From Bordetella genomosp. 7 (GTDB lineage Bacteria > Pseudomonadota > Gammaproteobacteria > Burkholderiales > Burkholderiaceae_B): DNA of 64,000 nt. The notes under the pieces were generated by a model, which saw nothing but the letters and a program-made list of their open reading frames with translations, searched no databases and was not told where the DNA came from. The stretch's first letter is position 1, and each line of letters opens with the position of its first letter. The stretch lies in NCBI RefSeq assembly GCF_002261265.1, contig NZ_NEVK01000003.1, positions 620,001 to 684,000 of the forward strand. Direction: 5' to 3'. This document shows positions 7,365-42,865 of this stretch, piece after piece. Made by a program: the position numbers and the translations under genes.

Positions 7365-7366
7365 TC

Positions 7367-10023: not shown

Positions 10024-10074
10024 ATAGGCGTGCGCGGTATCATCCAATTACCGCCCGACCGTCACGCGCCATTC

Positions 10075-27252: not shown

Positions 27253-27327
27253 ATCGCCGGCGCAGCAGTGGTATCTGCATCGCGAAACCGGCAAACTGGC
27301 GGCTTGGGTGTGGCCGGGAGAATCAGC

Positions 27328-28248
27328 ATGAATCAAACGACAGACAGCCGCGCGCGGGTATCGGTGCTGGGCGCGGGACTGATGGGGCATGGCATTGCGC
27401 AGGCATTCATGGTGGCGGGGTTTCAGGTGGCCATCTGGGATCCGAACCCCGCCGTGCGCGCCGACGTGCCACGCCGTATTGCCGGTCACCTCGAGCTGCT
27501 GGGCCAGAGCCGGCCCGTGGACGTGCGCATCAGCGACACGCTGGAGCAGTGTGTCGAAGACTGCGACCTGGTCGTAGAGGCCGCGCCCGAAAAGCTCGAC
27601 ATCAAGCGCGAACTGGTGCGGGCCATCGACGCCGCCAATCCGCACTGCATCGTTGCCTCGAATACCTCGGTGCTGCGCATCACCGAAATCGCCGCGGGCT
27701 CCGCGCTGGCGTCGCGCATCGTAGGCACGCACTGGTGGAACCCGCCGTATCTGATGCCCCTGGTCGAAGTCGTGCATGGCGAACAGACCGACAAGCGCGT
27801 CGTACAGCGCGTCATCGCATGGCTGGAGCAGGCCGGCAAGATCCCGGTAGAGGTGTATCGCGACGTGCCGGGGTTTGTGGGCAATCGCATGCAGTTCGCG
27901 CTGGTGCGCGAGGCGGCGCACATTGTCGAACAAGGCATCTGCGCGCCCGAAACCGTAGACCTGGTGGCCCGCCTGACTTTCGGGCGCCGGCTGCCCGAGA
28001 TCGGCCCGCTCAGAAACGCCGATTTCATCGGGCTGGACCTTACCAGCGACATCATGGACTACCTGGCGCCCTCGCTCAGCAATGTTGGGCAGGCGCCGCG
28101 CATGTTCCGCGAAAAAGTCGAAGCCGGCAATATCGGCGCCAAGTCCGGGCAGGGCACCTATGCCTGGCAGCCATCCGAGCGCGACGCCACCGAGCGCAGG
28201 CTGCTCGAACACCTTATCGCCGTCAGCCGGCAAGAAAAAACCGAGTAG
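27328..28248 (+). CDS. 3-hydroxyacyl-CoA dehydrogenase-family NAD-dependent dehydrogenase
   Basis: 306 residues, a single 3HCDH unit. The NAD-binding motif GAGLMGHGIAQAF is at residues 16-28. The catalytic His is in GTHWWNPPYLMPLVEVV, and the C-terminal domain has VPGFVGNRMQFALVREAAHIVEQG. The WWNPP stretch is seen in dehydrogenases acting on small 3-hydroxy acids (carnitine- or gulonate-like) as well as acyl-CoA, so the substrate is open. GGGAG lies 8 bases before ATG 27328. The gene converges with the ferredoxin reductase gene. Confidence 0.87.
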   Translation: MNQTTDSRARVSVLGAGLMGHGIAQAFMVAGFQVAIWDPNPAVRADVPRRIAGHLELLGQSRPVDVRISDTLEQCVEDCDLVVEAAPEKLDIKRELVRAIDAANPHCIVASNTSVLRITEIAAGSALASRIVGTHWWNPPYLMPLVEVVHGEQTDKRVVQRVIAWLEQAGKIPVEVYRDVPGFVGNRMQFALVREAAHIVEQGICAPETVDLVARLTFGRRLPEIGPLRNADFIGLDLTSDIMDYLAPSLSNVGQAPRMFREKVEAGNIGAKSGQGTYAWQPSERDATERRLLEHLIAVSRQEKTE

Positions 28249-28275
28249 CCGCCTTCCGGCACGGCGGCCGGGCGT

Positions 28276-29481
28276 TCAGAGATGGGCCTTCAAAGGTATG
28301 GCCGGGTCGGCCAGCACCGCCTGGTCGGGAAGCTGGTCTTTTTCCAGCAGCTTGCGCGCGGCAATATGATCGACCGGCGCATTGATCGATTCCACGCAAG
28401 CCAGCCTGCCCTGGGCGAAATGCAGTATCGAAAAGCTGCCCGGCTTGGCGCCGGGCCGCGTCACGCATTCGGCGCCCTGGGGGGCCAGGCCGGCCATCTG
28501 CAGGCGCAGGCTGCCCAGGTCGGACCAGAACCAGGGCAGGGCGGCGTAGGGCGCCGGCTGCTGTCCCGCCAGCAGCGCCGCGAGCGTGCGCGCCTGGTCG
28601 TTGGCATTCTGCACCGATTCCAGGCGCAGGCGCCGGTTCCAGCGGGCATAGGGAAAACTCACGCAATCGCCAATTGCATAGATGTGCGCGGCGGATGTCC
28701 GCATATGGCCATCGACGGCGATACCGTTATCGATGGCCAGGCCCGCAGACTGGGCCAGCGCGGTGTCGGGCTCGGCGCCGATGCCGGCCACCAGCAGGTC
28801 GGCGGCGTGCGTCTCGCCCTGGCAGATCAGCGCATCCACGCGCTGCTGCTGGCACAGGAACTCGATCGGCCCGCAATTGCGCTGCAAGGTGATGCCGGCC
28901 TGCAGCAGCGTGTTTGCGACATGCTCGGAAACATCGGGCGAGACCGCGCGGGCCAGCAGCCGGTCGGCCATCTCGAAGACCGTGACGCGCTTGCCCAGCG
29001 CCGCCGCGGTCGCGGCGATCTCCAGGCCGATGAATCCGCCGCCAAGCACGGTGACGGACTTTGCCTCGGCTAACGACACGCGCAGGCGCAGCGCATCGTC
29101 GATGGTGCGCAGATAGTGCAGGTTGTCCAACGCCGCGGGCAATCCGGGCAGGCGCCTGGGGCGGGTGCCGGTGGCAAGCACCAGGGCGTCGTAGGGCAGG
29201 ACCCTGCCATCACTGAGCGTGACCTTGCGGGCCTCGGCATCGATATGTTCGGCGCGCGTGCGCAGGTGCAGGGTCATCCCCTCGTAGGCCGACTCGGGGC
29301 GCAGCAACTGGGGCTCGGCCTGGGGGTCTTTGAGGTATCCCTTGGACAGCGGGGGGCGGTGATAAGGCAGATGGGCCTCGGCGCTTACCAGGGTGACGCC
29401 GGTTCGAAGCCCGGCCTCGGCGAGGCTGGCACAAAGTTGCGAGGCGGCATGGCCGCCTCCCACGATGACGATACGCTGCAT
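28276..29481 (-). CDS. FAD-dependent ferredoxin reductase (putidaredoxin-reductase type) for the P450 island
   Basis: 401 residues. FAD motif IVIVGGGHAASQLC at the N-terminus, LPYHRPPLSKGYL, LATGTRPRRLPG, NAD motif VTVLGGGFIGLEIA, and IYAIGDCVSF for the FAD ribityl site. C-terminal PWFWSDLGSLRLQMAG is typical of rhodocoxin/putidaredoxin reductases. It would take electrons from NADH to the [2Fe-2S] ferredoxin at 39189-39512 and on to the two P450s. It is transcribed away from the ABC-P450 operon. The 288-base shared region has operator-like repeats and a TATTAT -10 (29507-29512, minus strand). Confidence 0.92.
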   Translation of the reverse strand: MQRIVIVGGGHAASQLCASLAEAGLRTGVTLVSAEAHLPYHRPPLSKGYLKDPQAEPQLLRPESAYEGMTLHLRTRAEHIDAEARKVTLSDGRVLPYDALVLATGTRPRRLPGLPAALDNLHYLRTIDDALRLRVSLAEAKSVTVLGGGFIGLEIAATAAALGKRVTVFEMADRLLARAVSPDVSEHVANTLLQAGITLQRNCGPIEFLCQQQRVDALICQGETHAADLLVAGIGAEPDTALAQSAGLAIDNGIAVDGHMRTSAAHIYAIGDCVSFPYARWNRRLRLESVQNANDQARTLAALLAGQQPAPYAALPWFWSDLGSLRLQMAGLAPQGAECVTRPGAKPGSFSILHFAQGRLACVESINAPVDHIAARKLLEKDQLPDQAVLADPAIPLKAHL

Positions 29482-29514
29482 GAGGCCCGCTCACAGTGTG
29501 GAAAAAATAATACG

Positions 29515-29535
29515 CCGTATCTTTAGTCGATACGG
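29515..29535. promoter_or_regulatory. Perfect inverted repeat, likely operator of the ferredoxin-reductase promoter
   Basis: CCGTATC (29515-29521), 7-base spacer, GATACGG (29529-29535). It ends right next to a TATTAT -10 box on the minus strand, so it covers the expected -35 region of the reductase promoter. A near-identical site lies at 29693-29711. A role for the IclR regulator encoded at 39561-40364 is my inference. Confidence 0.65.
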
Positions 29536-29692
29536 ACGAATTGTATATCGATGCGACATGTTGCGGTTCCGTCGGCCAAAAAATGCCCGCACAAGGCCGG
29601 GTTAACCCTTAATTTCCTTATTAATCAAGGGTTTTCCCGGTCAAGAAAATTATTGCCCGCGGCCTTTTCTCGGTTCATTATTTAAATACGGT

Positions 29693-29711
29693 CGTATCGT
29701 TGTGCAATACG
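29693..29711. promoter_or_regulatory. Second copy of the operator-like repeat, upstream of the ABC-P450 operon
   Basis: CGTATC (29693-29698), 7-base spacer, AATACG (29706-29711), differing from the 29515 site by one arm base. It lies 58 bases before the substrate-binding-protein start. A 12-bp palindrome, ATACGGTCGTAT (29686-29697), overlaps its left arm. Elsewhere in the intergenic region, AACCCTT (29604-29610) and AAGGGTT (29627-29633) form another inverted repeat. Confidence 0.6.
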
Positions 29712-29769
29712 ATGATTGATTAGTCATCGAATTCGGATACCTGTTCGATATACAAACTAGGGGGCTTCC

Positions 29770-30921
29770 ATGTCCAGGATTTCTCGTCGTCATATGCTCG
29801 GGTTGCTTGGGGCTGGCCTTGCGCTGCCGGTTCTGGTCAAAGCGCAAGACTCGTCGCCCATACGCATAGGCTGCATGTTGCCCCTGTCGGGTAACGGTTC
29901 CATCGAAGGCAATCAAGTTTTCAAGGGCGTCAAGTTCGCCGTCGCCGAAGCCAACGCCGCGGGCGGTGTGCTGGGGCGCAAGATCGAACTCGCGGTCGAG
30001 GACGACGAAAGCAATACCTCCAAGGGGGTGTTGGCGGTTCGCAAGCTCATTGAGCAGGAAAAGGTGCCTCTCATCATCGGCACTTATGCTTCCGCCGTGG
30101 TCGTTGCCAGCATGAAGGTGGCCAAAGAACTCAAGGTGCCCATGCTGACGGGCGGCTCCACCGGCGCGATCGCCACGGACGCCAACACGCCGGGAGATCC
30201 CTGGTTCTTCCGCTTCTTTGCCGACAGCACGGGCCAGGGTAACGACACCGCGAACGCGATCGTCCACAAATTCAAGGCCAAGCGCGTCGCCATCCTGCAC
30301 GACACGACGGGCTACGGCACCGACCTGGCCCAGCAGACCTCCGACGTGGTGAAGGCCGCGGGCGGCGAGATCGTGGCCAAAGAGTCGTACAACATTGGCG
30401 ACCAGGACTTCTCTACCATCCTGACCCGGATCCGCACCCTCAAGCCCGACGTGGTGTACATCGGCGGCTGGGCGGCGGACGGAGCCACCATCGTGCGCCA
30501 GGCCGCGTCGGTGGGCCTGCGTACCCAGTTCGTGGGTTCCGGTTCGATGCTGAGCGACGATTTCATCAAGCTGGCGGGCCCGGCGTCCGAGAACTTCGCG
30601 GTCGCCACCGCCTACGAGGCCAGCACGCCCAACAAAGTCGGCCGCGCCTTTGGCGAGCGCTTCCGCAAGGAATACGGCCACGACCCCGGCATGCTCAACG
30701 CCCTTGGTTATTACTCGGCAGCCATCGGCATCGAGGCACTGCGCCGCGTGGGCAAGCCCGACGGCGCCGCGATCCAGCAGATGCTGGCCAATGGTATGAA
30801 AGACTTCCCAATTGGCCTGGGGCCCGAAGGAACCACGGCGGACTTCAATGAAAAGGGCAGTGTCGACTATCCCTATTTCATTGCGATCATCAAGAACGGC
30901 AAACGCGTTCTCGACTATTGA
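29770..30921 (+). CDS. ABC-transporter substrate-binding protein, LivJ/branched-chain amino acid type
   Basis: 383 residues. The N-terminus SRRHMLGLLGAGLALPVLVKA carries twin arginines and is a Tat-like or Sec-like signal peptide. The mature part begins IRIGCMLPLSGNGSIEGNQVFKGVKFAVAEANAAGGVLGRKIEL, the leucine-binding-protein fold (periplasmic binding protein type 1). Such proteins also bind aromatic acids and amides in catabolic islands, so the ligand here is likely the substrate of the downstream P450 pathway. First gene of a long plus-strand operon. Confidence 0.92.
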   Translation: MSRISRRHMLGLLGAGLALPVLVKAQDSSPIRIGCMLPLSGNGSIEGNQVFKGVKFAVAEANAAGGVLGRKIELAVEDDESNTSKGVLAVRKLIEQEKVPLIIGTYASAVVVASMKVAKELKVPMLTGGSTGAIATDANTPGDPWFFRFFADSTGQGNDTANAIVHKFKAKRVAILHDTTGYGTDLAQQTSDVVKAAGGEIVAKESYNIGDQDFSTILTRIRTLKPDVVYIGGWAADGATIVRQAASVGLRTQFVGSGSMLSDDFIKLAGPASENFAVATAYEASTPNKVGRAFGERFRKEYGHDPGMLNALGYYSAAIGIEALRRVGKPDGAAIQQMLANGMKDFPIGLGPEGTTADFNEKGSVDYPYFIAIIKNGKRVLDY

Positions 30922-30942
30922 TCAATCGAGGCAGAAGCGATC

Positions 30943-31815
30943 GTGGACCTTCTACTGCAATATCTCGCCAACGGCATCGTCAACGGCAGCAACTATGTGC
31001 TGGTGGCTGTCGGGCTGACGCTGGTGTTCGGCATCCTGGGCGTCGTCAACTTTGCCCATGGCGAGTTCTACATGCTGGGCGCCTACACGGGGCTGATCCT
31101 GGTTATCAACTATGGCCTGCCGATCTGGGCAGCCCTGGGCGGCGTGCTGGTGGTGGCCATCATTCTGGGGCTGGGCGCCGAAGGGCTGCTGAACAAGATG
31201 CTCAAAGAGCGCGACGCAACCAGTTCCATTATTGCGTCGTTCGGCTTGGCGGTAGTGCTGCAGAACTCGGCCCTGATCGGCTTCGGTCCCAGCCCCATGC
31301 TGATGCAAACCCAGTACTCCACCATCGGCGTCGAAATAGGGCCCGTCTACCTGCCGCTGCAGCAATTGCTGATTCCGGTGGCCATGGTGGCGCTGATTTC
31401 GGTGCTGTACCTGGTGCTGCGCTACACGTGGACGGGGCGCAGCCTGCGCGCCATGGCCCAGCATGCCATGGTGGCCCGGATGTGCGGCGTGCGCGTGCAG
31501 CGGGTTGCCGTCATTACCTTCATCGTGTCGGCGCTGCTGGCAGGCATCGCGGGCTTCATGATGTCATCGGTGTACATGGTGTACCCCATCATCGGCAACA
31601 TGATCGTGCTCAAGGCATTCACGGTCGTCATTCTGGGGGGCATGGGCAATGTGGCCGGCGCGGCCGCGGCTGGCCTGCTGCTGGGTATCGTCGAATCCCT
31701 TACCTCGGCCTACCTGGGCAACGGCTTGCGCGACATCGTCGGATTCGTGATCGTCATCGCCGTCCTGCTGCTGCGTCCGCAGGGTCTGTTCGGAAGGACG
31801 TTCCAACGCTCATGA
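30943..31815 (+). CDS. ABC-transporter permease, LivH type
   Basis: 290 residues, about eight helices. LQYLANGIVNGSNYVLVAVGLTLVFGILGVVNFAHGEFYMLGAY is the LivH signature, and the KAFTVVILGGMGNVAGAAAAGLLLGIVE loop is the EAA-like ATPase contact region. Inner-membrane channel half of the importer. Start codon is GTG. The stop overlaps the next ATG as ATGA. Confidence 0.93.
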   Translation: MDLLLQYLANGIVNGSNYVLVAVGLTLVFGILGVVNFAHGEFYMLGAYTGLILVINYGLPIWAALGGVLVVAIILGLGAEGLLNKMLKERDATSSIIASFGLAVVLQNSALIGFGPSPMLMQTQYSTIGVEIGPVYLPLQQLLIPVAMVALISVLYLVLRYTWTGRSLRAMAQHAMVARMCGVRVQRVAVITFIVSALLAGIAGFMMSSVYMVYPIIGNMIVLKAFTVVILGGMGNVAGAAAAGLLLGIVESLTSAYLGNGLRDIVGFVIVIAVLLLRPQGLFGRTFQRS

Positions 31816-32765
31816 AGAAAAATCTCTCCCTCCTCATTCTGGTGCTGCTGCTCGCGGCGGTGCCATTCCTTGTGCAGGGCAGCTATATCGTGTCGCTGCT
31901 GCTGCTGATGCTGGTGTACGTGATCCTGACGACCGGGTTGAACCTGGTCACCGGGTTCTGCGGGCAGTTTTCGTTCGCCCAGGGGGCGTTCTTCGGAATC
32001 GGCGCCTATACCGCCGGCATCATGTCGCGCGACCTGGGTACCGGCTTCTGGGTGCACCTGCCGGCCGGAATGATCATCACCGGGCTGTGCGGCCTGCTGC
32101 TGGGCGTTCCCGCGCTGCGTCTGAAAGGGCACTTCCTGGCTATCGTGACCATCGCCTTCCAGACCATCGTCTATCTGGGGCTGGTGCAGTGGACGTCTTT
32201 TACCGGGGGGCAGAATGGCCTGCCGGTGGAACCGGTGGGCGATGTCTCGTTGTTCGGCGCGCACTTGTTCACGATCGACGGCTTGAGGGCCAACTATTGG
32301 CTGATTCTGACGGCGACGGTCGTGCTGGTGGCGGTGGCCGAACGGCTGGTGAAGTCGCGGCTGGGGCGCGAATGGGTGGCGGTGCGCGATGACGAGGTTC
32401 TGGCCTCGGCCATCGGCCTGAACGCCACCCGTGCCAAGCTGACCGCTTTCGTCGCATCGGCGGCGTTTGCCGGCGCGGCGGGCGTGCTCATGGCCCACTA
32501 CATGGGCAACATCGCCCCCGACGACTACACCATCTGGATATCCTGCACGATCGTGGCAATGATGATCATCGGCGGCAAAGGCTCGTTCTATGGGCCCATA
32601 TTGGGCGTGGCGCTCTTGACCCTTCTGCCCGAGATGCTGGGCGACTGGGCCCGCTACCGCATGCTGTTCTTCGGCGTGCTGCTGATATTGGCCATTGCCC
32701 TGATGCCCGAAGGCATCGCGGGCCGCGTACGCAAGCTGCGCGCCACCAAGGAGGCCCAGGCATGA
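31812..32765 (+). CDS. ABC-transporter permease, LivM type
   Basis: 317 residues, nine or so helices. YVILTTGLNLVTGFCGQFSFAQGAFFGIGAYTAGIM and the C-terminal IVAMMIIGGKGSFYGPILGVALLTLLPE are LivM signatures. It forms the membrane channel with the LivH-type partner. The frame is open far upstream across livH, but ATG 31812 overlaps the livH stop by 4 bases (ATGA) and begins the first helix. Confidence 0.93.
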   Translation: MKKNLSLLILVLLLAAVPFLVQGSYIVSLLLLMLVYVILTTGLNLVTGFCGQFSFAQGAFFGIGAYTAGIMSRDLGTGFWVHLPAGMIITGLCGLLLGVPALRLKGHFLAIVTIAFQTIVYLGLVQWTSFTGGQNGLPVEPVGDVSLFGAHLFTIDGLRANYWLILTATVVLVAVAERLVKSRLGREWVAVRDDEVLASAIGLNATRAKLTAFVASAAFAGAAGVLMAHYMGNIAPDDYTIWISCTIVAMMIIGGKGSFYGPILGVALLTLLPEMLGDWARYRMLFFGVLLILAIALMPEGIAGRVRKLRATKEAQA

Positions 32766-33553
32766 GCACTGCTCCCATTCTGGAAGCCCGAGGGATTCAT
32801 CGCCGGTTCGGCGGCGTGGTGGCGGTCAAGGATGTCAGCCTGTCGGTCGGCGTCGGCGAAATCGTCGGCCTGATCGGGCCCAACGGTTCGGGCAAGTCCA
32901 CGATGGTCAACCTGATCACGGGCGAGCTCGAAACCAATGGCGGATCGTTCCTGTTCGGCGGGCAGGACGTCACGGCCCTGCCGCCCTACAAGCGGGCACG
33001 CCTGGGCATGGCGCGCAGTTTTCAGATGATTCGATTGTTCGGCTCGCTGAGCGTCGAAGAAAACCTGCTGCTCGCGCATCACATCCGCATGCAATCCAGC
33101 ACTCTGGACACCATCCTGGGACGCGCGCAGGCCGTCCGGGAAGAAGACGCGGTGCGGGCCAAGGCGCGTGAACTGCTGCAGTGGTTCGAGTTGGAACAAT
33201 TCGCGAAACGGCCGGCGACCGACCTGTCTATCGGGCAGCAACGCATGGTGGAACTTGCGCGCGGGCTCATCAGCATGCCCAAGCTGTTCCTGCTCGATGA
33301 ACCGGCGGCCGGCCTGTCGCCTCCGAATGTCGACAGGCTGATCAGCATCATCCGCAGGATGCGCGACGAATTCGGCATGAGCATTCTGCTGGTCGAGCAC
33401 GATATGCGCGTAGTGCGCGAACTGTGCGACCAGGTGGTGGTGCTCGATAGCGGGGTCATGATCGCCCACGGGCACCCGGAGACCGTGGTCAACGACCCGG
33501 TCGTGGTCGAGGCTTATATCGGTTCAGGATGGAAGCGCCGTGCTAAAGCTTAA
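32762..33553 (+). CDS. ABC-transporter ATPase, LivG type
   Basis: 263 residues. Walker A GPNGSGKST, Q-loop region ARSFQMIRLFGSLSVEENLL, signature LSIGQQRMVELARGL (C-loop with SIGQ in place of SGGQ) and Walker B LFLLDEPAAGLSP. LivG-type spacing and the VEHDM switch motif are present. Start overlaps the livM stop (ATGA). Confidence 0.93.
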   Translation: MSTAPILEARGIHRRFGGVVAVKDVSLSVGVGEIVGLIGPNGSGKSTMVNLITGELETNGGSFLFGGQDVTALPPYKRARLGMARSFQMIRLFGSLSVEENLLLAHHIRMQSSTLDTILGRAQAVREEDAVRAKARELLQWFELEQFAKRPATDLSIGQQRMVELARGLISMPKLFLLDEPAAGLSPPNVDRLISIIRRMRDEFGMSILLVEHDMRVVRELCDQVVVLDSGVMIAHGHPETVVNDPVVVEAYIGSGWKRRAKA

Positions 33554-34259
33554 CAATATCATCGCGGGCTACGGCCGCACGCGCATATTGCATGGCGTGA
33601 CGCTGGATGTGCCCAAGGGCGGGCTGGTTGCGCTGCTGGGCGGCAATGGCACGGGTAAATCCACCACCCTGAAAAGCATCGTGGGCCTGGTGTCATTGCA
33701 GGAAGGCAACATCGTCTTCGACGGCAAGGACATCGACGACGTCCCGGTCGAGCGCCGCGCCGCCATGGGCCTGTCGCTGGTGCCGCAAGGCAAGGAAGTC
33801 TTCGCGGGCATGAGCGTCCAGGAAAACCTGCTGATGGGGGCCTATCACCGCCGCCGCGACAAGGCCGGCATCGCCGAAGACCTCGAAGGTGTTTACCAGC
33901 GCTTCAAACGCCTGCGAGAGCGCCGCAATGTGGCGGCCGGCATGCTCTCCGGCGGCGAACGCCAGATGCTGGCCATCGGCCGCTCGCTCATGTCGCGTCC
34001 TTCCATGCTGCTGCTGGACGAGCCGTCGGCCGCGCTGGCGCCCAGAGTCGTGGAAGAAATCGCCGAGGCGATTCTCGCCTTGCGCGAACTGGGCCTGACG
34101 CTGCTGCTGGTGGAGCAGAACGTCGGGATGGCGCTGGACATCGCGGACTACATCTATGTGATCCGCGGCGGGCGTATCGCTTATGAGCGCGAGGTCGGCG
34201 ATGGCGTGGCCATGGACGAACTGCGCGAATTCTATCTGGGAGGTAAAGAGCATGTCTGA
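33540..34259 (+). CDS. ABC-transporter ATPase, LivF type
   Basis: 239 residues. Walker A GGNGTGKST, LVPQGKEVFAGMSVQENLLMGAY, signature LSGGERQMLAIGRSLM and Walker B MLLLDEPSAALAP. It pairs with the LivG-type subunit. The GTG start overlaps the livG end by 14 bases, and its own end overlaps the SDR start by 8 bases, so the operon is tightly coupled. Confidence 0.93.
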   Translation: MLKLNNIIAGYGRTRILHGVTLDVPKGGLVALLGGNGTGKSTTLKSIVGLVSLQEGNIVFDGKDIDDVPVERRAAMGLSLVPQGKEVFAGMSVQENLLMGAYHRRRDKAGIAEDLEGVYQRFKRLRERRNVAAGMLSGGERQMLAIGRSLMSRPSMLLLDEPSAALAPRVVEEIAEAILALRELGLTLLLVEQNVGMALDIADYIYVIRGGRIAYEREVGDGVAMDELREFYLGGKEHV

Positions 34260-35022
34260 ATCGCGCTTTCAGGGCCGCGTGGCGTTCGTCACCGGAGCGG
34301 CCTCGGGATTGGGCAAGGCCAGTGCCTTGAGGCTGGCCCGCGACGGCGCGAAGCTGATGCTGTTCGACCGCGACGCAGCCGGCCTGGAAGCGCTCCGGGC
34401 CTCATGCCCCGACGCCGTCACTTACGTGGGCGACGCATCGCTGGCGGCGGACGTGAATGCGGCCGCGGAACTGTCGCGCCAGACTTTCGGCCCCGCCGAG
34501 TTTCTCGTGGCCTCGGCGGGCATCAACGGCATTCCCAAGCCCGCCATCGACTACACCGAAGAAGAGTGGGACAGGCTCTTCGATGTCAACGTCAAGGGGG
34601 CCTGGCTGGCCGTCAAGGCGCTCGTTCCGCAGATGCGCGAGCTCGGCAAGGGGTCGATCGTGCTGTTCTCATCCACCGCCGGCCTGGGCGGTTCGGGCTT
34701 TCTGCCCGCGTACTCGGCTTCCAAGGGCGCCGTGGCGCTGCTGGCGCGCAGCCTGGCGCTGAATCACGCGCGCGAAGGCATCCGGGTCAATTGCGTATGC
34801 CCGGGCACCATAGACACTCCCATGGCGCAGGAAATGTTCGTGAAAGCAAGCGAGCTGGGAGGCGCCGCGCCGCCGACGGTCGATGTCATGCGTAACCGCA
34901 TTCCGATGGGAAGGTTCGGCCAGGCCGACGAGATCGCCGACGCCGTCATGTATTTCCTGAGCGACGCAGCCAGCTACACCACGGGCGTGACAATGCCCGT
35001 CGATGGGGGGTTGAAGGCCTGA
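34252..35022 (+). CDS. Short-chain dehydrogenase/reductase
   Basis: 256 residues. Cofactor motif TGAASGLG (near residue 14), an ASAGINGIPK variant of the NNAG motif, SSTAGLGGSGFLPAYSASKGA with catalytic Tyr and Lys, and the PVDGGLKA C-terminus. Classical NAD(P)-dependent SDR. The NNAG motif reads ASAG, which is unusual but seen. Likely role: oxidising an alcohol intermediate in the island's pathway. ATG 34252 overlaps the livF stop; a longer frame from 34183 is antisense-like extension. Confidence 0.9.
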   Translation: MSESRFQGRVAFVTGAASGLGKASALRLARDGAKLMLFDRDAAGLEALRASCPDAVTYVGDASLAADVNAAAELSRQTFGPAEFLVASAGINGIPKPAIDYTEEEWDRLFDVNVKGAWLAVKALVPQMRELGKGSIVLFSSTAGLGGSGFLPAYSASKGAVALLARSLALNHAREGIRVNCVCPGTIDTPMAQEMFVKASELGGAAPPTVDVMRNRIPMGRFGQADEIADAVMYFLSDAASYTTGVTMPVDGGLKA

Positions 35023-35073
35023 CGGCCTGACGAGCAAGTTGATCCAGCACCAGTCCAGAAAAGGAACCAGGCC

Positions 35074-36282
35074 ATGACCCAAGTCGCGGTTGCAGTCGCG
35101 GCTCCCGAGCTCGACATCGATCCTTACGACGATGCCGTGCTCGAGTCGCCGTTTGCCATGTTCGACCAGCTCCGCCAGGCGCCGGCGGTGTATCTCAAGC
35201 GCTACGGCGTCTACGCCATCGGGCGTTATCGGCAGGTGCGCGACGCGATGAAAGATTGGGAGACTTTCTCGTCTTCCGGCGGCATCGGCCTGACCGACGT
35301 GCGCGAGCCGGACACCTGGCGCGCCCGAAGTCCCATAGGCGACGTGGATCCGCCCGAACATACGCAGGTGCGCACGGTCATACAGCGCATTCTGTCGCCG
35401 CAGGTCATCCGTGGCTGGCGCGCGGGGTTCGAAGAAGAGGCCGAGCGGCTGATCGGCGAAATGGTCGAGAGAGAATACGTGGACGGCGTGCAAGACCTGG
35501 CGGAAGCCTATGTTTCCACGTCGTTTCCCAAGGCCATGGGTATTCGGCATACGCCTGAGCTGCGCGCGAACTGGTACCTGATGGGCGAGCTCAACTTCGA
35601 TAGTCAGGGGCCGCGCAATGCCCGCTACCTGGCTACGCAGCAGCGCGCCGACGCGCTCATCAAGGATTGGCAGCAGGCCAGCATGCAGCGCGAAAGCCTG
35701 ATGCCCGGCGGCTTCGGGATCAAGATCTTCGAGGCGGCCGATGCCGGCCAGATGGCGCCGGAGCTGGCTCCGTTGCTGATCCGTTCTTTCCTGCGCGGCG
35801 GCCTGGACACGACGACCGCCATGATTTCCTCGGTGCTGTATTACCTGGCCCGCGATCCTTCCCAGTATGCCCGGCTGCGCGAAGATCCCTCGTTGGCCCG
35901 CCCGGCGCTGGACGAAACCATGCGCCTGGAAAGTCCGTCGCAGACGGCCTACCGGCTCACCATGCGCGATGCGGTGGTGGACGGCGTGACGATTCCGGCA
36001 AACAAGAAAGTGATGCTGCAACTGGGTGCAGCCAACCGTGATCCGGCCTTCTGGGACCGGCCCGACGAATTCGACATTGCGCGCAACCCCGTGGGCCACC
36101 TGGCGCTGGGGCACGGCGTGCATATGTGCGTAGGCCAGATGATCGCCCGCCTGGAAGGCGAATGCGTACTCAATGCCCTGATCAAGCGAGTCGGCAAGTT
36201 GAGCCTGGAAGGGCCCACGACGCAGCGGCTGAATAACGCCCTGCGCAGTCTGAAAACCCTGCCGCTGCGCCTGCAGGCCTGA
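35074..36282 (+). CDS. Cytochrome P450, CYP199-like (first of two)
   Basis: 402 residues, soluble class I bacterial P450. I-helix FLRGGLDTTTA with Asp245, ExxR motif EXXR at Glu281-Arg284 and heme ligand Cys352 in LGHGVHMCVG. The usual Phe seven residues before the Cys is Leu345. The N-terminal half (LKRYGVYAIGRYRQV, SSSGGIGLTDVREP, DPPEHTQVR, MPGGFG) strongly resembles, from memory, CYP199A enzymes that O-demethylate para-substituted benzoates. Electrons would come from the ferredoxin at 39189 and the reductase at 28276. AAGGA precedes the ATG. Confidence 0.9.
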   Translation: MTQVAVAVAAPELDIDPYDDAVLESPFAMFDQLRQAPAVYLKRYGVYAIGRYRQVRDAMKDWETFSSSGGIGLTDVREPDTWRARSPIGDVDPPEHTQVRTVIQRILSPQVIRGWRAGFEEEAERLIGEMVEREYVDGVQDLAEAYVSTSFPKAMGIRHTPELRANWYLMGELNFDSQGPRNARYLATQQRADALIKDWQQASMQRESLMPGGFGIKIFEAADAGQMAPELAPLLIRSFLRGGLDTTTAMISSVLYYLARDPSQYARLREDPSLARPALDETMRLESPSQTAYRLTMRDAVVDGVTIPANKKVMLQLGAANRDPAFWDRPDEFDIARNPVGHLALGHGVHMCVGQMIARLEGECVLNALIKRVGKLSLEGPTTQRLNNALRSLKTLPLRLQA

Positions 36283-36307
36283 GGCGGGGCGCACTTACGG
36301 AGCAAGC

Positions 36308-37066
36308 ATGGCCACGATGCGGCGGTTCGAGGGAAAGACCATTATCGTCACGGGTGCGGCGCGCGGTATCGGCGCGGCGACCGCCCGGCGGTTTGCCGAC
36401 GAAGGGGCATCGGTGCTGTGGGTCGATGTGTTGCCCGAAGTCGTTGAAACCGCCCATTCTGCGGGCGGCGAGGGGCTGGCGGTAGACGTCGCCGCGCCGG
36501 AAGCGGGGCAGCTTATCGTCGCCGCCGCGCTCGAGGCGTTCGGGCGCATCGATGTGCTGGTCAATAATGCCGGCGTCGGAGGATCCCGGCGGCTGGAAGA
36601 TTCTGACGACGCACTGCTCGCGCGCATCGTCGACATCAACCTGGTGTCGCTCATGCGCATCACGCGGGCCGTGCTGCCGCACCTGCCCAGGCCGGGCGGC
36701 AGCATCGTCAACCTGTCATCGATCTTCGGCCTGGTGGGGTACCCCGGCACCACCGCCTACGCTGTGGCCAAGGCCGGAGTGACCCAGTTCACGCAGCAAC
36801 TGACCAGCGAGGTCGCTCACCAGGGAATCCGGGTCAACGCCATTGCCCCGGGCGTCGTGGTGACGCCGATGACCGAAGCGCATCTGCAGAATCCCAACTA
36901 CGTCAAGCTGATGGTGTCTTCCACTCCGATGGCCCGCGTCTGCCAGCCCGAAGAGCAGGCCGCGGCGATTGCGTTCCTGGCCTCGGACGATGCTTCGTTT
37001 GTGTGCGGCGTGACCTTGCCCGTCGACGGCGGCTATTTGTCCGCCCGATACATTCCCAACTACTGA
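36308..37066 (+). CDS. Short-chain dehydrogenase/reductase (second in the island)
   Basis: 252 residues. TGAARGIGAATARRFADEG for cofactor, NNAGVGG, SSIFGLVGYPGTTAYAVAKAGV with active-site Tyr and Lys, and PVDGGYLSARYIPNY at the end. Lies between the first P450 and the deacetylase-like hydrolase gene. GGAGC before ATG 36308. Substrate unknown; the family includes 3-oxoacyl and aryl-alcohol dehydrogenases. Confidence 0.9.
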   Translation: MATMRRFEGKTIIVTGAARGIGAATARRFADEGASVLWVDVLPEVVETAHSAGGEGLAVDVAAPEAGQLIVAAALEAFGRIDVLVNNAGVGGSRRLEDSDDALLARIVDINLVSLMRITRAVLPHLPRPGGSIVNLSSIFGLVGYPGTTAYAVAKAGVTQFTQQLTSEVAHQGIRVNAIAPGVVVTPMTEAHLQNPNYVKLMVSSTPMARVCQPEEQAAAIAFLASDDASFVCGVTLPVDGGYLSARYIPNY

Positions 37067-37102
37067 TTCACGAGCGGCGTGTCGCATGCGCCAGGAGTAC
37101 CA

Positions 37103-37939
37103 ATGATGAAACATGACATGAGTGTCAAATGGCCCGGCGGAGCGCGTTGCGCCGTCATGCTGACCTTTGATTTCGACGCGGAAACCCTGTGGACGTCGCG
37201 CGACCCGGCCAACGCCAGGCGGCCGGGCATAGTCAGCCAGGGCGCCTACGGCGCCAAGGTGGGTGTGCCCAAGATCTGCGAGCTGCTCCATGAAGAAGAG
37301 GTCAAGGCCTCGTTCTACGTGCCGGGCTGGACTGCCGAACACCACACCGACAAGGTCGAGCTGATCCTGAAGGGCGGCCATGAGGTCGGCCACCATAGCT
37401 ATTCGCATCGCTGGTCCGACGGCGACGACGATGCCGAGATCGAAGAAATGGAAAAGGGGCTGGAGGCGCTCAAGCGCACGGTGGGCGTGGTGCCCAAAGG
37501 CTATCGCTCGCCGGCGGGCGAGGTCAGCCCCTTGCTGTTCGAGCTGCTCAAGAAGCACGGCTTTCTGTATGACACGTCGCTGATGGACGATATCAATCCG
37601 TATCGCCACACAATGCCGGACGGCAGCAAGGGCGTCGTCGAGCTTCCGTGGCACTGGAGCCTGGACGACGCGCCGTATGCGCTGTTCTCGATCAAGAACC
37701 CCCGCACCATCTGCTCGAACGCCCATATGGCCGATATCTTCAAGGCCGAGTTCCGCGAAATATACCGGTGGGGCGGGCTGTACGACCTGGTGATGCATCC
37801 GCAGGTCACGGGGCGGCCGGGCCGCATTGCGCTGCTGCGCGAAATGATCCAGTACATCAAGACCTTCCCGGGCGTGTGGTTCGCCACCGGGGCGGAAGTC
37901 GCCCAGGCCTGGATCGATCTCAACGAGAATAGCCAGTAA
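37103..37939 (+). CDS. Cytosolic polysaccharide-deacetylase-like metal hydrolase
   Basis: 278 residues with no signal peptide. NodB-like motifs: TFDFDAE (motif 1), HEVGHHSYSH with paired His (motif 2) and RSPAGEVSP (motif 3). The sequence resembles cytosolic PgdA/PuuE-type hydrolases from memory, many of which cleave cyclic or linear amides (allantoin-like, N-carbamoyl, imides) rather than glycans. Location in a catabolic operon with an amidase supports a small-molecule C-N hydrolase. ATG 37103 has AGGAG 6 bases upstream; GTG 37079 would be an alternative. Confidence 0.8.
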   Translation: MMKHDMSVKWPGGARCAVMLTFDFDAETLWTSRDPANARRPGIVSQGAYGAKVGVPKICELLHEEEVKASFYVPGWTAEHHTDKVELILKGGHEVGHHSYSHRWSDGDDDAEIEEMEKGLEALKRTVGVVPKGYRSPAGEVSPLLFELLKKHGFLYDTSLMDDINPYRHTMPDGSKGVVELPWHWSLDDAPYALFSIKNPRTICSNAHMADIFKAEFREIYRWGGLYDLVMHPQVTGRPGRIALLREMIQYIKTFPGVWFATGAEVAQAWIDLNENSQ

Positions 37940-37948
37940 GAGTTGATA

Positions 37949-39166
37949 ATGACTGACGCCATCGCCGACACCCCCAGGCAGGCTCCCGAACTGACCCTCG
38001 ACCCCTACGCCGAAGACGTGCTGCACTCGCCCTATGCGATGCACGCGGCCATGCGGCAGGCCGGGCCGGTGGCCTTCCTGCCCAAGTACGACATGTACGT
38101 CATGGGTCGCCATCGCGACGTGCACCCCGCCCTCAAAGACTGGAAGACCTATTCGTCCACCGGCGGCTCGGGCGTGGCCGACATCCGCAAGCCCGGCAAT
38201 TGGCGGCCCGCCAGTGCCATCGTCGAGGTCGATCCGCCACGGCACACCTACGTGCGCTCGGCCATGCAGAAAGCGATGTCGCCCCAGCTGATCCGTTCTT
38301 GGCGCGAGACCTTCGCCAAAGAAGCGGAGCGCCTGGTCGACGAGCTGCTGCAGCGCGAATACGTAGATGGGGTCTACGATCTGGCCGAGCAGTATATTTC
38401 CACGACCTTTCCGCCGGCCCTGGGCCTGGAAGTCACGCCGGAAACCCGCGACAACCTGTTCCTGCTCGGGGCGCTCAATTTCGACGCGCAAGGCCCCAAG
38501 AACGACCGCTACGAAGCGACGCAGAAGCGCGCCGACGCAATCATGCCGTGGCACGACGCCATGATGCGACGCGAGAACCTGCTGCCGGGCGGTTTCGGCG
38601 ACCGCCTGTACCAGGCCGTCGACGCGGGCGAACTCGAACCCGAACTCGCGCCGTTGCTGGTGCGGTCATTCTTGCGCGGCGGGCTGGACACCACCAGCAG
38701 CGCCATTTCGGCCGCGCTGTGGTACCTGGCCATGAATCCGTCGCAGTATGCGCTGTTGCGCGACGACCCCGGCCAGGCACGGCCCGCCCTGGAAGAGGCC
38801 ATGCGGCTCGAAACCCCCATCCAGACGGTCGGGCGCCTGACGATGTGCGATGTCATCGTGGACGGCACACGCATTCCCGCCGACAGGAAGGTCATGATGT
38901 TCCTGGCGTCGGCAAACCGAGATCCCGATTTCTGGGACCGCCCGGATGACTACGACATGACGCGTTCCCGCCTGGGGCACGTCGCCCTTGGCAACGGTAT
39001 TCACATGTGCATCGGCCAGATGATCGCGCGCCTGGAAGGCGAATGCATCCTGACGGCCATTGCCCAGCGCGTGCGCGAAATCAGTCTCGAAGGGGAGCCC
39101 GTGCGCCGCATCAACAATGTGTTGCGCAGCCTCAAGCATCTGCCCTTGCGTTTGAAGGCTGCCTGA
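37949..39166 (+). CDS. Cytochrome P450, CYP199-like (second of two)
   Basis: 405 residues. I-helix FLRGGLDTTSSA with Asp247, heme ligand Cys354 in LGNGIHMCIG, and Leu347 in place of the usual Phe at minus 7. It is clearly a paralogue of the first P450 (same LAPLLVRSFLRGGLDTT, LLPGGFG and HMCIGQMIARLEGEC blocks), so the pair looks like an ancient duplication with divergence. The ferredoxin gene follows after 22 bases. A TTG at 37943 is less likely than ATG 37949. Confidence 0.9.
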   Translation: MTDAIADTPRQAPELTLDPYAEDVLHSPYAMHAAMRQAGPVAFLPKYDMYVMGRHRDVHPALKDWKTYSSTGGSGVADIRKPGNWRPASAIVEVDPPRHTYVRSAMQKAMSPQLIRSWRETFAKEAERLVDELLQREYVDGVYDLAEQYISTTFPPALGLEVTPETRDNLFLLGALNFDAQGPKNDRYEATQKRADAIMPWHDAMMRRENLLPGGFGDRLYQAVDAGELEPELAPLLVRSFLRGGLDTTSSAISAALWYLAMNPSQYALLRDDPGQARPALEEAMRLETPIQTVGRLTMCDVIVDGTRIPADRKVMMFLASANRDPDFWDRPDDYDMTRSRLGHVALGNGIHMCIGQMIARLEGECILTAIAQRVREISLEGEPVRRINNVLRSLKHLPLRLKAA

Positions 39167-39188
39167 CCTCTCTACAGGAAAATTCTTC

Positions 39189-39512
39189 ATGCCGAAAATA
39201 ATCTTCATCGATGCCCAGGCGTCCAGCACCCAGGTCGAGGCGGCCAGCGGCGAGAGTGTGATGCTCGCTGCGCTGGGCGCTCATGTAAAAGGAATCCTGG
39301 GCGAATGCGGCGGCTCGTTGGCCTGTGCCACCTGCCACGTTTATGTAGACGAGGCCTGGCTGGATAAACTGCCTTCCGTATCCGACCTGGAAAACGAAAT
39401 GCTCGACGCGACCGTCTGCGAGCGCCGCCCGAACAGTCGCTTGTGCTGCCAGATCGAAATGTCGAACGCGCTGGATGGCCTGACGGTCCGCTTGCCCGAC
39501 GCGCAGATATGA
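39189..39512 (+). CDS. [2Fe-2S] ferredoxin of the putidaredoxin type
   Basis: 107 residues. Cluster ligands Cys40, Cys46, Cys49 (CGGSLACATC, CX5CX2C) and Cys86 in RLCCQIE, the adrenodoxin/putidaredoxin spacing. CHVYVDEAWLDKLPSVSDLENEMLD matches the family's partner-binding helix. Single copy shared by both P450s; its reductase is encoded divergently at 28276-29481. AGGAAA lies before the ATG. Confidence 0.94.
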   Translation: MPKIIFIDAQASSTQVEAASGESVMLAALGAHVKGILGECGGSLACATCHVYVDEAWLDKLPSVSDLENEMLDATVCERRPNSRLCCQIEMSNALDGLTVRLPDAQI

Positions 39513-39560
39513 CGCTTCGACGCATCTGGCCGGCGCAGGCCCATTCAGCAGGAATGAACC

Positions 39561-40364
39561 ATGAGCATCAAACACCGCTTCCCTCCTATCGATGACCGCC
39601 TGCTGCTGCAATCCGTATCCCGGACGCTGGACGTCCTGGAGGCCTTCGCCGAGAAGCCGGACGCTAAATCCCTGAGCGAGATCGCGGCGGCGGCGGGTAT
39701 CAATAAGAGTGCCGCGCAGCGCATCAGCCAGACCTTGCTCAATCGGGGCTATCTCGAGCAGACCGAGCGCGGGGGCCTGATGCTGGGTCGTTTGTTGCTG
39801 GATAGGGCGTTCGATTACCTGCGATCCAATCCGCTGATCGAAAAGGCGGCGCCGATTCTCAGCGACTTGCGCACCACCACCGGCGAGCGCGTGGATCTGA
39901 GCCTGTTCGATGCCGAGCACGACAACCTGACCATCGTGTATGCCGCGCGCATGCAGAGCAAGCGCGAACGTTTCTACGCGACCTTGCCCGGAAGGCGCAT
40001 GCCGACGTGCGTGGCAACGGGAGGGCGGGCCTGCATGGCCGCGTTGCCCGACGAGGTCGTCGAACAGATCATCGCCGACTCCGAACTGACGCTGATTACG
40101 CCCAAGACCCGGATAGATCGTGAATACATCTGGGAAAAAGTGCACGCCGCGCGCCGCGATGGCTATTCCTCTCAAGAAGAAGAAACGCTGTTGGGCGAAG
40201 TCGTGCTGGCCGCCGCTATCCGCGACCACGACGGCGTACCGGTGGGCGCCATTCATATCGCCGGGTCGCTCAGCGACTGGAACGCCGACGTGTTCTGCAA
40301 ACGCTTCAGTCCACTGGCCATCGAGGCCGCTCGCGCCCTGAGCCAGTGGAATCCGCATCAATGA
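39561..40364 (+). CDS. IclR-family transcriptional regulator of the P450 island
   Basis: 267 residues. HTH domain SVSRTLDVLEAFAEKPDAKSLSEIAAAAGINKSAAQRISQTLLNRGYLE, then the GAF-like IclR effector domain (LSLFDAEHDNLTIV..., IRDHDGVPVGAIHIAGSL). It lies inside the operon, between ferredoxin and amidase genes. IclR members are often repressors or activators of the adjacent aromatic or acid catabolic genes. The CGTATC-N7-GATACG repeats at 29515 and 29693 are candidate targets by position; IclR sites have no strict consensus. Confidence 0.9.
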   Translation: MSIKHRFPPIDDRLLLQSVSRTLDVLEAFAEKPDAKSLSEIAAAAGINKSAAQRISQTLLNRGYLEQTERGGLMLGRLLLDRAFDYLRSNPLIEKAAPILSDLRTTTGERVDLSLFDAEHDNLTIVYAARMQSKRERFYATLPGRRMPTCVATGGRACMAALPDEVVEQIIADSELTLITPKTRIDREYIWEKVHAARRDGYSSQEEETLLGEVVLAAAIRDHDGVPVGAIHIAGSLSDWNADVFCKRFSPLAIEAARALSQWNPHQ

Positions 40365-40386
40365 GCCAGCTACATTAAGGACAATC

Positions 40387-41832
40387 ATGACGGAAAACGA
40401 GTACCAGGACCTGGATGGACTGGCCCTGGCGGACCTGCTCCAGAAAAAGGCGGTGTCGTCGCCGGAACTGATGGAGCATGCGGTCGCCTTGTCGCGTACG
40501 CGCGGCGCGGCGCTCAATGCCATTCGCTACGAGAAGTACGACGATGCGCTGCAATGGGCCCGGCAGTGGCGGCATCAAGGGCAGTTCCAGGGTATTCCTT
40601 TCTTGCTCAAGGACTCCAGCCTGGCGTCCGTGCGCTTGCCCATGAGCCTGGGGTCGAATCTGTTCACCGACACGTCGTTCACTTTCGACGCCACCCTGAC
40701 GCAACGCTTCGAGGCCGCGGGGCTGATTCCCTTTGCGCGGACGTCGGTGCCCGAGTTCTGCATGGCGCCCACCACCGAGGCCGTGGCCAATGGCGCGGTA
40801 ACGCTCAACCCCTGGGACGAAACACGTTCGGCCGGCGGCTCCAGCGGCGGGGCCGCCGCGGCGGTTGCCGCGCGCGTGGTGCCGCTCGCCCATGGCAGCG
40901 ATGGCGGCGGGTCCATTCGCATCCCGGCATCGTGCTGCGGGTTGTACGGGTTCAAGGCAACACGAGGCCGCGTGCCGACCGGGCCGACCAAGGGCGAGAT
41001 CTGGGGCGGAATGGGCACGGACGGTGTGCTGAGCCGCAGCGTGCGAGACACGGCCGCCGCCATGGACGCAATATGCGGCCGGGAAGCGGGCGCGCCCTAT
41101 GACTCGGCGCCGCCGAACGCATCATTCATGTCGGCCGTCACCGAAGCCCGGCGCGCTCCGCTGCGCATCGCGGTCTGGACGTCGGCCTGGGACGGCATCC
41201 CGCTGGCGCCCGAGTGCCTGGATGCAGTCCGCTACGCGGCGAGCCTGTGCAAAGACATGGGCCACGAGATCATCGAGGCCGCGCCGCCGCCCCTGGACTA
41301 CCAGCAGTTCTTCCAGTCGCACTTGCAGGTCCTGGAGGCGAACATCGTCGCCTCGGTGCATGCCCGGCTGGCGGGCCTGAAGCGCTCGCTGCGCGATGAC
41401 GACCTCGAGCCGGCGATGCGCGACGGCTATGAACAGGGCTTGCGCCTGACCGCCGAAGACTATGTCAACGCGATCAACACGTTTCACCACGTGGGTCGCG
41501 TGTTGCAGACGGACATCGCCCGCTTCGACCTGATCCTTACCCCCATGCTGGCGCAACCGCCCGCGCCCCTGGGGTACCTGGCCATGCAAGGGCCGTTCCG
41601 CGAGTTCCGCTACAAGGTGGCTCAGTACGCGGTTTTCTCGGCCATCATGAACGCGTCGGGCCAGCCGGCCGCGAGCGTGCCGGTGTACTGGACCGAAGCC
41701 GGGTTGCCTATCGGCGTGCAGATCATGGGGCAGTTCGGGCGGGACGACCTGGTGCTGCGGCTGTCGGCCGAGCTCGAGCGCGCCGCGCCGTGGGCCGGCC
41801 GCATCCCGGCACGCTTCAAACAGGCGGCATGA
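40387..41832 (+). CDS. Amidase-signature hydrolase
   Basis: 481 residues. Catalytic Lys75 in IPFLLKDSS, the GGSSGG motif with cis-Ser152, and nucleophile Ser176 in GSDGGGSIRIPAS. The amidase signature is complete, so it should cleave a C-N amide of unknown substrate. AAGGA precedes the ATG. Last gene of the island; the convergent ModA-like gene and a repeat array follow. Confidence 0.9.
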   Translation: MTENEYQDLDGLALADLLQKKAVSSPELMEHAVALSRTRGAALNAIRYEKYDDALQWARQWRHQGQFQGIPFLLKDSSLASVRLPMSLGSNLFTDTSFTFDATLTQRFEAAGLIPFARTSVPEFCMAPTTEAVANGAVTLNPWDETRSAGGSSGGAAAAVAARVVPLAHGSDGGGSIRIPASCCGLYGFKATRGRVPTGPTKGEIWGGMGTDGVLSRSVRDTAAAMDAICGREAGAPYDSAPPNASFMSAVTEARRAPLRIAVWTSAWDGIPLAPECLDAVRYAASLCKDMGHEIIEAAPPPLDYQQFFQSHLQVLEANIVASVHARLAGLKRSLRDDDLEPAMRDGYEQGLRLTAEDYVNAINTFHHVGRVLQTDIARFDLILTPMLAQPPAPLGYLAMQGPFREFRYKVAQYAVFSAIMNASGQPAASVPVYWTEAGLPIGVQIMGQFGRDDLVLRLSAELERAAPWAGRIPARFKQAA

Positions 41833-41858: not shown

Positions 41859-42066
41859 CAGGTGTCAGGCACCCTGCGGGAGCCTGACACCGCCGTGCCC
41901 AAGTCCCAGATACCAGAGACACCAGGCGCCCAGCTCCCGCAGGGCGCCTGACACCGCCATGCGCAAGTTCGAGACACCAGGTGTCTGGCTCCCGCAGGGC
42001 GCCTGACACCGCTATGCGCAAGTTCGAGACACCAGGTGTCTGGCTCCCGCAGGGTGCCTGACACCG
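41859..42066. repeat. Second hairpin-repeat array, with 55-bp tandem units
   Basis: One 31-bp unit (41861-41891) with GGTGTCAGGC / GCCTGACACC arms and a CCCTGCGGGA core is followed by about 2.6 tandem units of 55 bp starting at 41922, 41977 and 42032. Each of those has a TCCCGCAGGG core, CCTGACACC and, in the first two, a GCGCAAGTTCGAGACA linker. The core is the same family as 602-766, and the first unit is again reversed relative to the rest. It lies between convergent genes, like the first array. Confidence 0.88.
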
Positions 42067-42091
42067 CAATGGTTTCCGACGCACGTCGCGT

Positions 42092-42865
42092 TCAACGATG
42101 GAATCCGTGCGAGCGCATGACCTGGGCGACTTTCGGCCCTTTCAGATAGAACAGAAACGACCTTGCGGCCATATTGTCTGCGCCGGAACGCAGCAGTACC
42201 GCGTCCAGCCGCAGGGGGTCGTACAGCGAGGTCGGCACGATCCACGCCGACCCGTGCTCGATACGGCTGTTTTTATACACATACGAAAGCGATACGAACC
42301 CCAGCTCCGTGTTTTCGCCGGATACGAAACGACGCGTGTCGGACACGCCGTGCCTTTCCACCAGCTTGCCCGCGATCGACTCGCGCAGCCCCAGCCTTTC
42401 GAGCACTTGCAAGGCCGAGCGACCATAAGGCTGCACATCGGGGCTCAGGATAGACAGGCGCTTGAACTGGTTGGACTTCAAGACTTCGCCCTGCGGGTCG
42501 ACATAACCTTTGTGCGGCGACCATAGCGCCAGCACGCGCGTCGCATAGGTATAGCGGGTGCCGGGCACGGCCTTGCGTGTTGCCTCCAGGCGCGCGGGCA
42601 GCACGTCGTTGCCGGCCACTAGCACATCGTAGCGGGCGCCTTGTTCGATCTCGACGTACAGCTTGCTGGTGGGCGCCACGGTAAGGCGGACTTCATTGCC
42701 CGTCTTGCGCTGGAATTCTTCGGCGACCATGCGGATGGGCGCCGCGACACCGGAGGCCACGGCCACCCGGACTTCGCCAGCGTGCGCAGTCATGCCAAAG
42801 ATGCTGGCAAGCATGGCGGCAATCAAATATTTGAGGCATGCGCTCATAGGGCGCGATTTGACCAT
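42092..42865 (-). CDS. ModA-like periplasmic substrate-binding protein
   Basis: 257 residues from ATG 42865; other in-frame starts are 42922 and 42847. A signal peptide (LKYLIAAMLASIFGMTAHA) precedes EVRVAVASGVAAPIRMVAEEFQRKTGNEVRLTVAPTSKLYVEIEQGARYDVLVAGNDVLPARL, a ModA (molybdate-binding) pattern. No ModBC genes are adjacent, so it is an orphan binding protein. Ligand could be molybdate, tungstate or another oxyanion. The nearby molybdopterin enzyme makes molybdate an attractive but unproven guess. Confidence 0.78.
   Translation of the reverse strand: MVKSRPMSACLKYLIAAMLASIFGMTAHAGEVRVAVASGVAAPIRMVAEEFQRKTGNEVRLTVAPTSKLYVEIEQGARYDVLVAGNDVLPARLEATRKAVPGTRYTYATRVLALWSPHKGYVDPQGEVLKSNQFKRLSILSPDVQPYGRSALQVLERLGLRESIAGKLVERHGVSDTRRFVSGENTELGFVSLSYVYKNSRIEHGSAWIVPTSLYDPLRLDAVLLRSGADNMAARSFLFYLKGPKVAQVMRSHGFHR

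Follow-up and report, generated by a model that had tools for sequence, protein, structure and literature searches.

The 13.6-kb gene block at positions 28276-41832 of a 64,000-nucleotide stretch of Bordetella genomosp. 7 (the window; contig NZ_NEVK01000003.1, positions 620,001 to 684,000, in a genome of 4.13 Mb and 8 contigs) raises the question of which compound its products take up and degrade. A preliminary description had seen in it one self-contained catabolic unit acting on a nitrogen-containing aromatic substrate. Our analysis supports the single unit and a substrate that is probably a nitrogen-containing acid. We read the block tentatively, with a confidence that stops a little short of even, as a catabolic regulon that has moved horizontally and whose substrate is a small acid, either a carboxylated lactam or an N-heterocyclic (amide-bearing) one, degraded via a cyclic imide.

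The importer, two cytochromes P450 (P450s), ferredoxin, reductase, two short-chain dehydrogenases (SDRs), amidase and NodB-like hydrolase named earlier were all recovered by Pfam, and an IclR-family regulator that had been missed was added to the list. One divergent gene on the minus strand precedes 13 co-directional genes on the plus strand:

28276-29481, minus: NAD(P)H-dependent ferredoxin reductase (Pyr_redox_2 and Reductase_C, E 7.7e-64)
29482-29769, no strand: divergent promoter (288 bp) with two palindromes CGTAT-N9-ATACG at 29516-29534 and 29693-29711
29770-30921, plus: periplasmic substrate-binding protein of the branched-chain-amino-acid/amide (HAAT) importer type (E 2.4e-75)
30943-31815, plus: permease 1, LivH type (BPD_transp_2, E 1.5e-39)
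31812-32765, plus: permease 2, LivM type, its start overlapping the permease 1 stop (ATGA)
32762-33553, plus: ABC ATPase, LivG type (Pfam)
33540-34259, plus: ABC ATPase, LivF type (Pfam)
34252-35022, plus: SDR1, short-chain dehydrogenase (start about 34252)
35074-36282, plus: P450a, CYP199-family paralogue
36308-37066, plus: SDR2, short-chain dehydrogenase
37103-37939, plus: polysaccharide-deacetylase-fold hydrolase of the PuuE/HP0310/imidase branch, proposed cyclic-imide hydrolase (Polysacc_deac_1, E 4.5e-17)
37949-39166, plus: P450b, CYP199 family
39189-39512, plus: [2Fe-2S] ferredoxin (E 1.5e-08)
39561-40364, plus: IclR-family regulator (best NCBIfam model PcaR/PcaU/PobR, below that model's cut-off)
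40387-41832, plus: amidase-signature amidase (E 5.3e-88)
Beside the block, 27268-28248, plus: 3-hydroxyacyl-CoA dehydrogenase-like gene, within the inserted stretch

Pfam E values were 1.1e-30 and 4.6e-30 for the two ATPases, 8.7e-56 and 1.7e-63 for the SDRs, and 7.9e-25 and 3.7e-25 for the P450s. The intergenic gaps are short and several genes overlap. With a Peripla_BP_6 binding protein, two BPD_transp_2 permeases and two ATPases, the HAAT ABC importer is complete; a 615-aa open reading frame (30918-32765) that would fuse LivH to LivM was rejected as a frame artefact, because Pfam matches the overlapping 290-aa frame and nothing in the first half of the long one. The hydrolase frame opens at 37079 and its likely start is the ATG after AGGAG at about 37103. 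A promoter and terminator scan stayed near the level of shuffled sequence (3 against 2.8 and 12 against 9.7, respectively).

In the proposed route, the HAAT-type importer would bring the acid in, and the two CYP199-family P450s, served by one shared ferredoxin and reductase, would grip it through the carboxylate group and add a hydroxyl, at best beside the ring nitrogen. The two SDRs would oxidise the resulting carbinol or carbinols to carbonyls, giving a cyclic imide that the deacetylase-fold hydrolase would open to a half-amide. The amidase would then strip off the nitrogen, and the resulting dicarboxylic acid would enter central metabolism. Control of the divergent reductase/importer promoter would fall to the IclR protein, acting through the two palindromic operators. 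The sequence itself shows the gene content, the carboxylate grip, the altered ring pocket, the place of the hydrolase in a small-molecule branch, the shared palindrome and the insertion of the block; the imide intermediate, the order of steps and the substrate are what we infer.

Paired P450s and SDRs are also common in biosynthesis, and the block might be a tailoring cluster in which they modify a secondary metabolite and nothing is degraded. This we consider highly improbable: no synthase, ligase or exporter was found among the block's genes, where an importer of the high-affinity type and an IclR regulator are present instead, and the core described below is seen again in several genera with first enzymes that differ.

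Related clusters and a shared palindrome

Twenty-four loci with a relative of the hydrolase were compared; they had been picked by short patterns of the window hydrolase, which makes them a biased sample, and were scored for 17 genes, a homologue being counted at half length or more. SDR1 and SDR2 were each present in 20 loci (19 with two genes, both queries matching a single one in L027) and both were absent from L019, L020, L021 and L025. IclR was scored in 20 loci and the binding protein in 15 (one at 27% identity). A P450 was present in 11, the ferredoxin reductase in exactly those 11 and the ferredoxin in five, although a reductase fragment lies at the stretch edge in L006 and L007, so that a P450 may lie beyond the fetched sequence there. 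The amidase occurred in five loci and a penicillin-acylase type hydrolase in six, never both, and neither in 13. An OYE-type (old yellow enzyme) reductase was scored in three loci, those named with one being L012, L014, L026 and L030. P450a was restricted to two loci, both from Bordetella, and lay between SDR1 and SDR2 in each; L012 (B. hinzii) lacks P450a but otherwise shares this gene order, and an OYE gene stands between its reductase and binding-protein genes.

Most P450-free clusters retain the SDR-hydrolase pair. The core of these clusters is the importer, SDRs, hydrolase and regulator, and of the front ends added to it the P450 system was seen most often; its presence in only 11 of the 24 marks the P450s as an add-on to an SDR and imidase-like hydrolase core.

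Several neighbours of the core were recorded. In L018 (Bradyrhizobium, 4066-10834), genes for a molybdopterin-type hydroxylase and a luciferase-type monooxygenase precede SDR2 and the hydrolase, with no P450 in the fetched stretch. The penicillin-acylase-family gene stands in the amidase's place in L006, L007, L014, L019, L026 and L027, and in the N-termini from L007 and L026 a signal peptide is not obvious on inspection by eye. Genes for gamma-aminobutyrate (GABA) transaminase lie near the core at L014:15753-18569 (with a succinate-semialdehyde dehydrogenase), L022:13672-14934 and L023:625-2022. A gene of the sarcosine-oxidase-beta type is divergent from the P450, with a palindrome between them, in L008 (2938-4188), L009 and L013.

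The window holds two copies of the motif CGTAT-N9-ATACG, both of them in the divergent promoter of the block, and 100 shuffles yielded none. The whole genome holds five copies (three of a reversed control pattern); the other three all lie inside long open frames, so no regulon member beyond the block was found in the source genome. Across the 24 loci (473,485 bases), the spacer of 9 gave 20 sites in 14 loci and the 20 other spacers between 0 and 20 gave four sites in total; ten first-order Markov resamples held no site in nine cases and one in the tenth. The sites precede the importer opposite a divergent reductase (L004, L005), penicillin acylase (L006, L007, L014, L026) or OYE gene (L012), and the importer in L010 as well; they precede the P450 and, a second time, the SDR operon in L008, L009, L011 and L013, the hydrolase in L020, and lie between IclR and the luciferase-type gene in L018. 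In eight loci the IclR gene is preceded by a one-mismatch palindrome. An exact site is absent from ten loci, namely seven with more distant hydrolases (62-71%) together with L015 and L016, which have one-mismatch palindromes, and L017, which has none.

Because the palindrome precedes each of them in lineages where they are seemingly on separate transcripts, P450, SDRs and hydrolase appear to answer to one signal. The block genes thus look like one regulon, and the shared predicted operator argues for their co-induction, with IclR as the protein that we infer to bind it.

P450 pockets and the substrate

P450a and P450b are 60% identical to each other, and the best solved relatives of both are CYP199A2, CYP199A4 and PbdA. 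By convention a P450 joins a family if it is 40% or more identical to one of its named proteins, and a subfamily if the identity is above 55%. Identity to CYP199A4 was 167/389 (43%) and 174/390 (45%) for the two window proteins, which places both in CYP199, as the preliminary description had it, and outside subfamily CYP199A.

Simulations of CYP199A4 have Arg92, Ser95 and Ser244 holding the carboxylate of the substrate, Arg243 being an alternative (PMC11854964). The crystal structures of PbdA show it held by Arg84, Ser87 and Ser237 and a water ordered by Arg236/Ser237, the first three residues deciding specificity (PMC11530827). The counterparts R92, S95, R243 and S244 (CYP199A4 numbering) are retained in both window P450s and in 15/15 clade members; both window proteins also keep F182, the I-helix threonine (T252) and the heme cysteine (C358). 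The conserved grip makes an acid substrate very likely.

The ring pocket is different. Of the demethylase set L98, F182, F185, A248, V295 and F298, only F182 is kept: the changes relative to CYP199A4 are L98G/V, F185Q, A248G, V295S/I (merely Ile in P450b) and F298A/V, where PbdA and CYP199A4 have F185, A248 and F298 in common. Neighbouring S247 is Arg in both P450s, a position not named in the active-site passages of PMC11854964 and PMC11530827. Q185, R247 and G248 are identical in 15/15 clade P450s, which separate from CYP199A4 and PbdA at 100/100 support in a tree of these 17 proteins. Positions 98, 185, 247, 248, 295 and 298 read V, Q, R, G, I, V in all 12 P450b-type rows and G, Q, R, G, S, A in the three P450a rows. 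P450b orthologues with a nearly identical pocket occur in 11 of the 24 loci, T252 being Ser in L015 and L016. To judge from these residues, P450b probably acts on the same substrate from Bordetella to Phreatobacter, and P450a may act on a different one.

These data bear directly on the simpler idea that an aromatic amide is imported and freed by the amidase as a para-substituted benzoate, which the P450s then demethylate or hydroxylate while the SDRs and the NodB-like hydrolase treat side chains. Family membership and the carboxylate grip agree with it, as do the PcaR/PobR class of the best, below-cut-off IclR model and the common use of HAAT importers for aromatic acids. Yet plain methoxybenzoate demethylation, as first suggested, is unlikely because the pocket differs from that of CYP199A4, with L98, F185, A248 and F298 replaced and Q185 and R247 fixed across the clade; the SDR-hydrolase core persists in most clusters without a P450; and no ring-cleavage or PobA-type gene was found inside the block. 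We therefore hold the benzoate route to be distinctly unlikely. A LigB-type aromatic ring-opening dioxygenase gene does lie upstream, outside the block (23596-24387, minus strand); it is present in five of the six fetched stretches of relatives and so is not part of the insertion.

The hydrolase branch and the later steps

The best structural Z scores of the hydrolase were to 3rxz, 3qbu, 3s6o, 1z7a and PuuE, above deacetylases, and sequence comparison likewise ranked the 3rxz, HP0310 and PuuE allantoinase group well above the classical deacetylases. Within the polysaccharide deacetylase fold, this placement puts the protein with PuuE, HP0310 and imidases in the branch that acts on small molecules, and lends substance to the earlier suggestion of an imide hydrolase; a typical polysaccharide or sugar deacetylase was set aside on the structure ranking.

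The hydrolase could nevertheless be a small-molecule N-deacetylase or deformylase, with the SDRs oxidising side-chain alcohols of an amino-alcohol or amino-sugar-like acid and no cyclic imide formed. The fold and the metal triad (an aligned aspartate and two histidines) are those of deacetylases, HP0310 in the same branch is reported to be one, 2,3-butanediol dehydrogenase is among the top models for the SDRs (below cut-off), and sarcosine-oxidase-type genes are neighbours in L008, L009 and L013. The same rankings nonetheless put classical deacetylases well down, and OYE and molybdenum-hydroxylase partners would be odd for such a route, which we regard as rather unlikely.

For the remaining steps, SDR1 has an invariant Ser-Tyr-Lys and Asp in the aligned rows, the Asp being one that usually favours NAD. 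K75, S152 and S176 of the amidase, which we take to be its catalytic triad, are invariant in six aligned rows, and its nearest solved structure is 6-aminohexanoate cyclic dimer hydrolase. A cyclohexanecarboxylate route was rejected and kept only as an analogy, the SDRs scoring 170.7 and 173.7 against the 350-bit cut-off of the NCBIfam model ChcB2; the titles and abstracts found for this route added nothing of use.

A number of observations weigh against the cyclic-imide route. No OYE-type reductase was matched in the window, and the nearest in the genome are 45% identical and located elsewhere. Of the 24 loci as fetched, 13 are without a P450, 13 without either amide hydrolase and four without either SDR, so that the core may serve several substrates. 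The GABA transaminase genes beside L014, L022 and L023 would agree as well with a product that carries a free amino group. The kinship of the hydrolase to imidases runs only via 3qbu, the alignment containing no imidase with measured activity; 3rxz, its nearest solved structure, has no known function, and HP0310 is described as inactive on allantoin and as a peptidoglycan deacetylase on crude peptidoglycan. Farther relatives (41-54% identity) in Sinorhizobium and on a Bosea plasmid have quite different neighbours, and the wider family therefore does more than one job. Finally, the second half of the pathway is modelled on a fungal parallel.

Movement of the block and comparison with known systems

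Comparison with relatives indicates that the block is an insertion that has moved horizontally between genomes, in keeping with the 'island' of the preliminary description. The hydrolase was found at E <= 1e-60 in three of nine genomes of the genus, the source genome included. In the window, a TauE-like gene (ending at 27252) and a solute-binding-protein gene (42092-42922) are separated by 14.8 kb; in four of the six relatives with a fetched stretch (G001, G002, G003 and G008), the matches to these flanking proteins lie about 10 to 40 bases apart, an empty site, and the fetched stretches of the other two (G004 and G006) gave no TauE match. G002 carries both the empty site and, about 54 kb away, the same block at 92-93% nucleotide identity over window positions 28267-41817, against 76-83% for the flanks on either side of the empty site. 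In G007 the match to the window is limited to the block (28298-41793). The nearest kin by locus are Bordetella petrii BT 1 9.2 (L004) and Bordetella sp. 02P26C-1 (L005), and in the former the block has 93-99% protein identity (a misread permease frame, 91%, excluded) between different flanks. Pfam detected no integrase or transposase among the block genes.

The gene at 27268-28248 is probably outside the pathway unit: it has a match in two of nine genomes, and in G002 it is 93% identical and lies about 2.6 kb from the empty site, apart from the block. Directly after the amidase gene, about three copies of a 55-bp repeat (41878-42071) lie at the right-hand edge of the inserted block.

If our reading is right, a so far unassigned gene set recurring in Bordetella, Bosea, Phreatobacter, Microvirga, Bradyrhizobium and others would gain a function, along with a class of substrates that can be tested, a catabolic hydrolase would lose its 'polysaccharide deacetylase' label, and a CYP199 branch with an acid substrate, probably no methoxybenzoate, would be defined. 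The palindrome offers a handle for finding further pathway genes in any genome. Searches for this gene set and for imidases in an open-access library, from which most subscription papers are absent, gave no title or abstract that describes the set.

The P450s resemble CYP199A4, CYP199A2 and PbdA in their identity (43-45% to CYP199A4), carboxylate grip, F182, T252 and C358, and differ from them in the replaced ring pocket and the linkage to imide-type genes; moreover, PbdA has one cognate reductase, PbdB, whereas the block has separate ferredoxin and reductase genes. The hydrolase has the fold and the small-substrate branch in common with PuuE allantoinase and HP0310 and stands in a different genomic setting; unlike PuuE, which is described as binding no metal (PMC3084791), it keeps the aligned metal-site residues. 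In the Sinomonas cyclohexanecarboxylate route, the P450 ChcA reportedly para-hydroxylates the ring acid before oxidation by the SDRs ChcB1/ChcB2; the block SDRs fall far below the ChcB2 cut-off, and an imidase-type hydrolase and an amidase are added.

The closest parallel is the lower half of the Hxn nicotinate pathway of Aspergillus nidulans, in which an OYE (HxnT) reduces the ring, an SDR (HxnW) converts a hydroxy-lactam to an imide, an imidase (HxnM) opens it and an amidase (HxnN) frees the nitrogen (PMC9304392). The block likewise combines an SDR, a deacetylase-fold imidase-type hydrolase and an amidase-signature amidase, and an OYE joins some of its sister bacterial clusters near the same palindrome. 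The OYE-free lineage of the window has a second P450 instead, which, as a conjecture, would suit a saturated (lactam) substrate whose ring does not have to be reduced. The block differs in being bacterial, in having P450s in place of molybdenum and flavin hydroxylases, in its HAAT importer and IclR gene, and in having no OYE in the window. It is possible, though we advance the idea with some doubt, that these clusters are a bacterial counterpart of the fungal imide route, spreading as a cassette whose core of importer, two SDRs, cyclic imidase and IclR/operator receives different first enzymes in different lineages (a new CYP199 subfamily that combines the carboxylate grip with a polar pocket, an OYE reductase or a molybdenum hydroxylase) and different amide hydrolases. 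If so, this P450 clade would be, to our knowledge, the first one whose members make N-heterocyclic or lactam acids ready for the opening of an imide.

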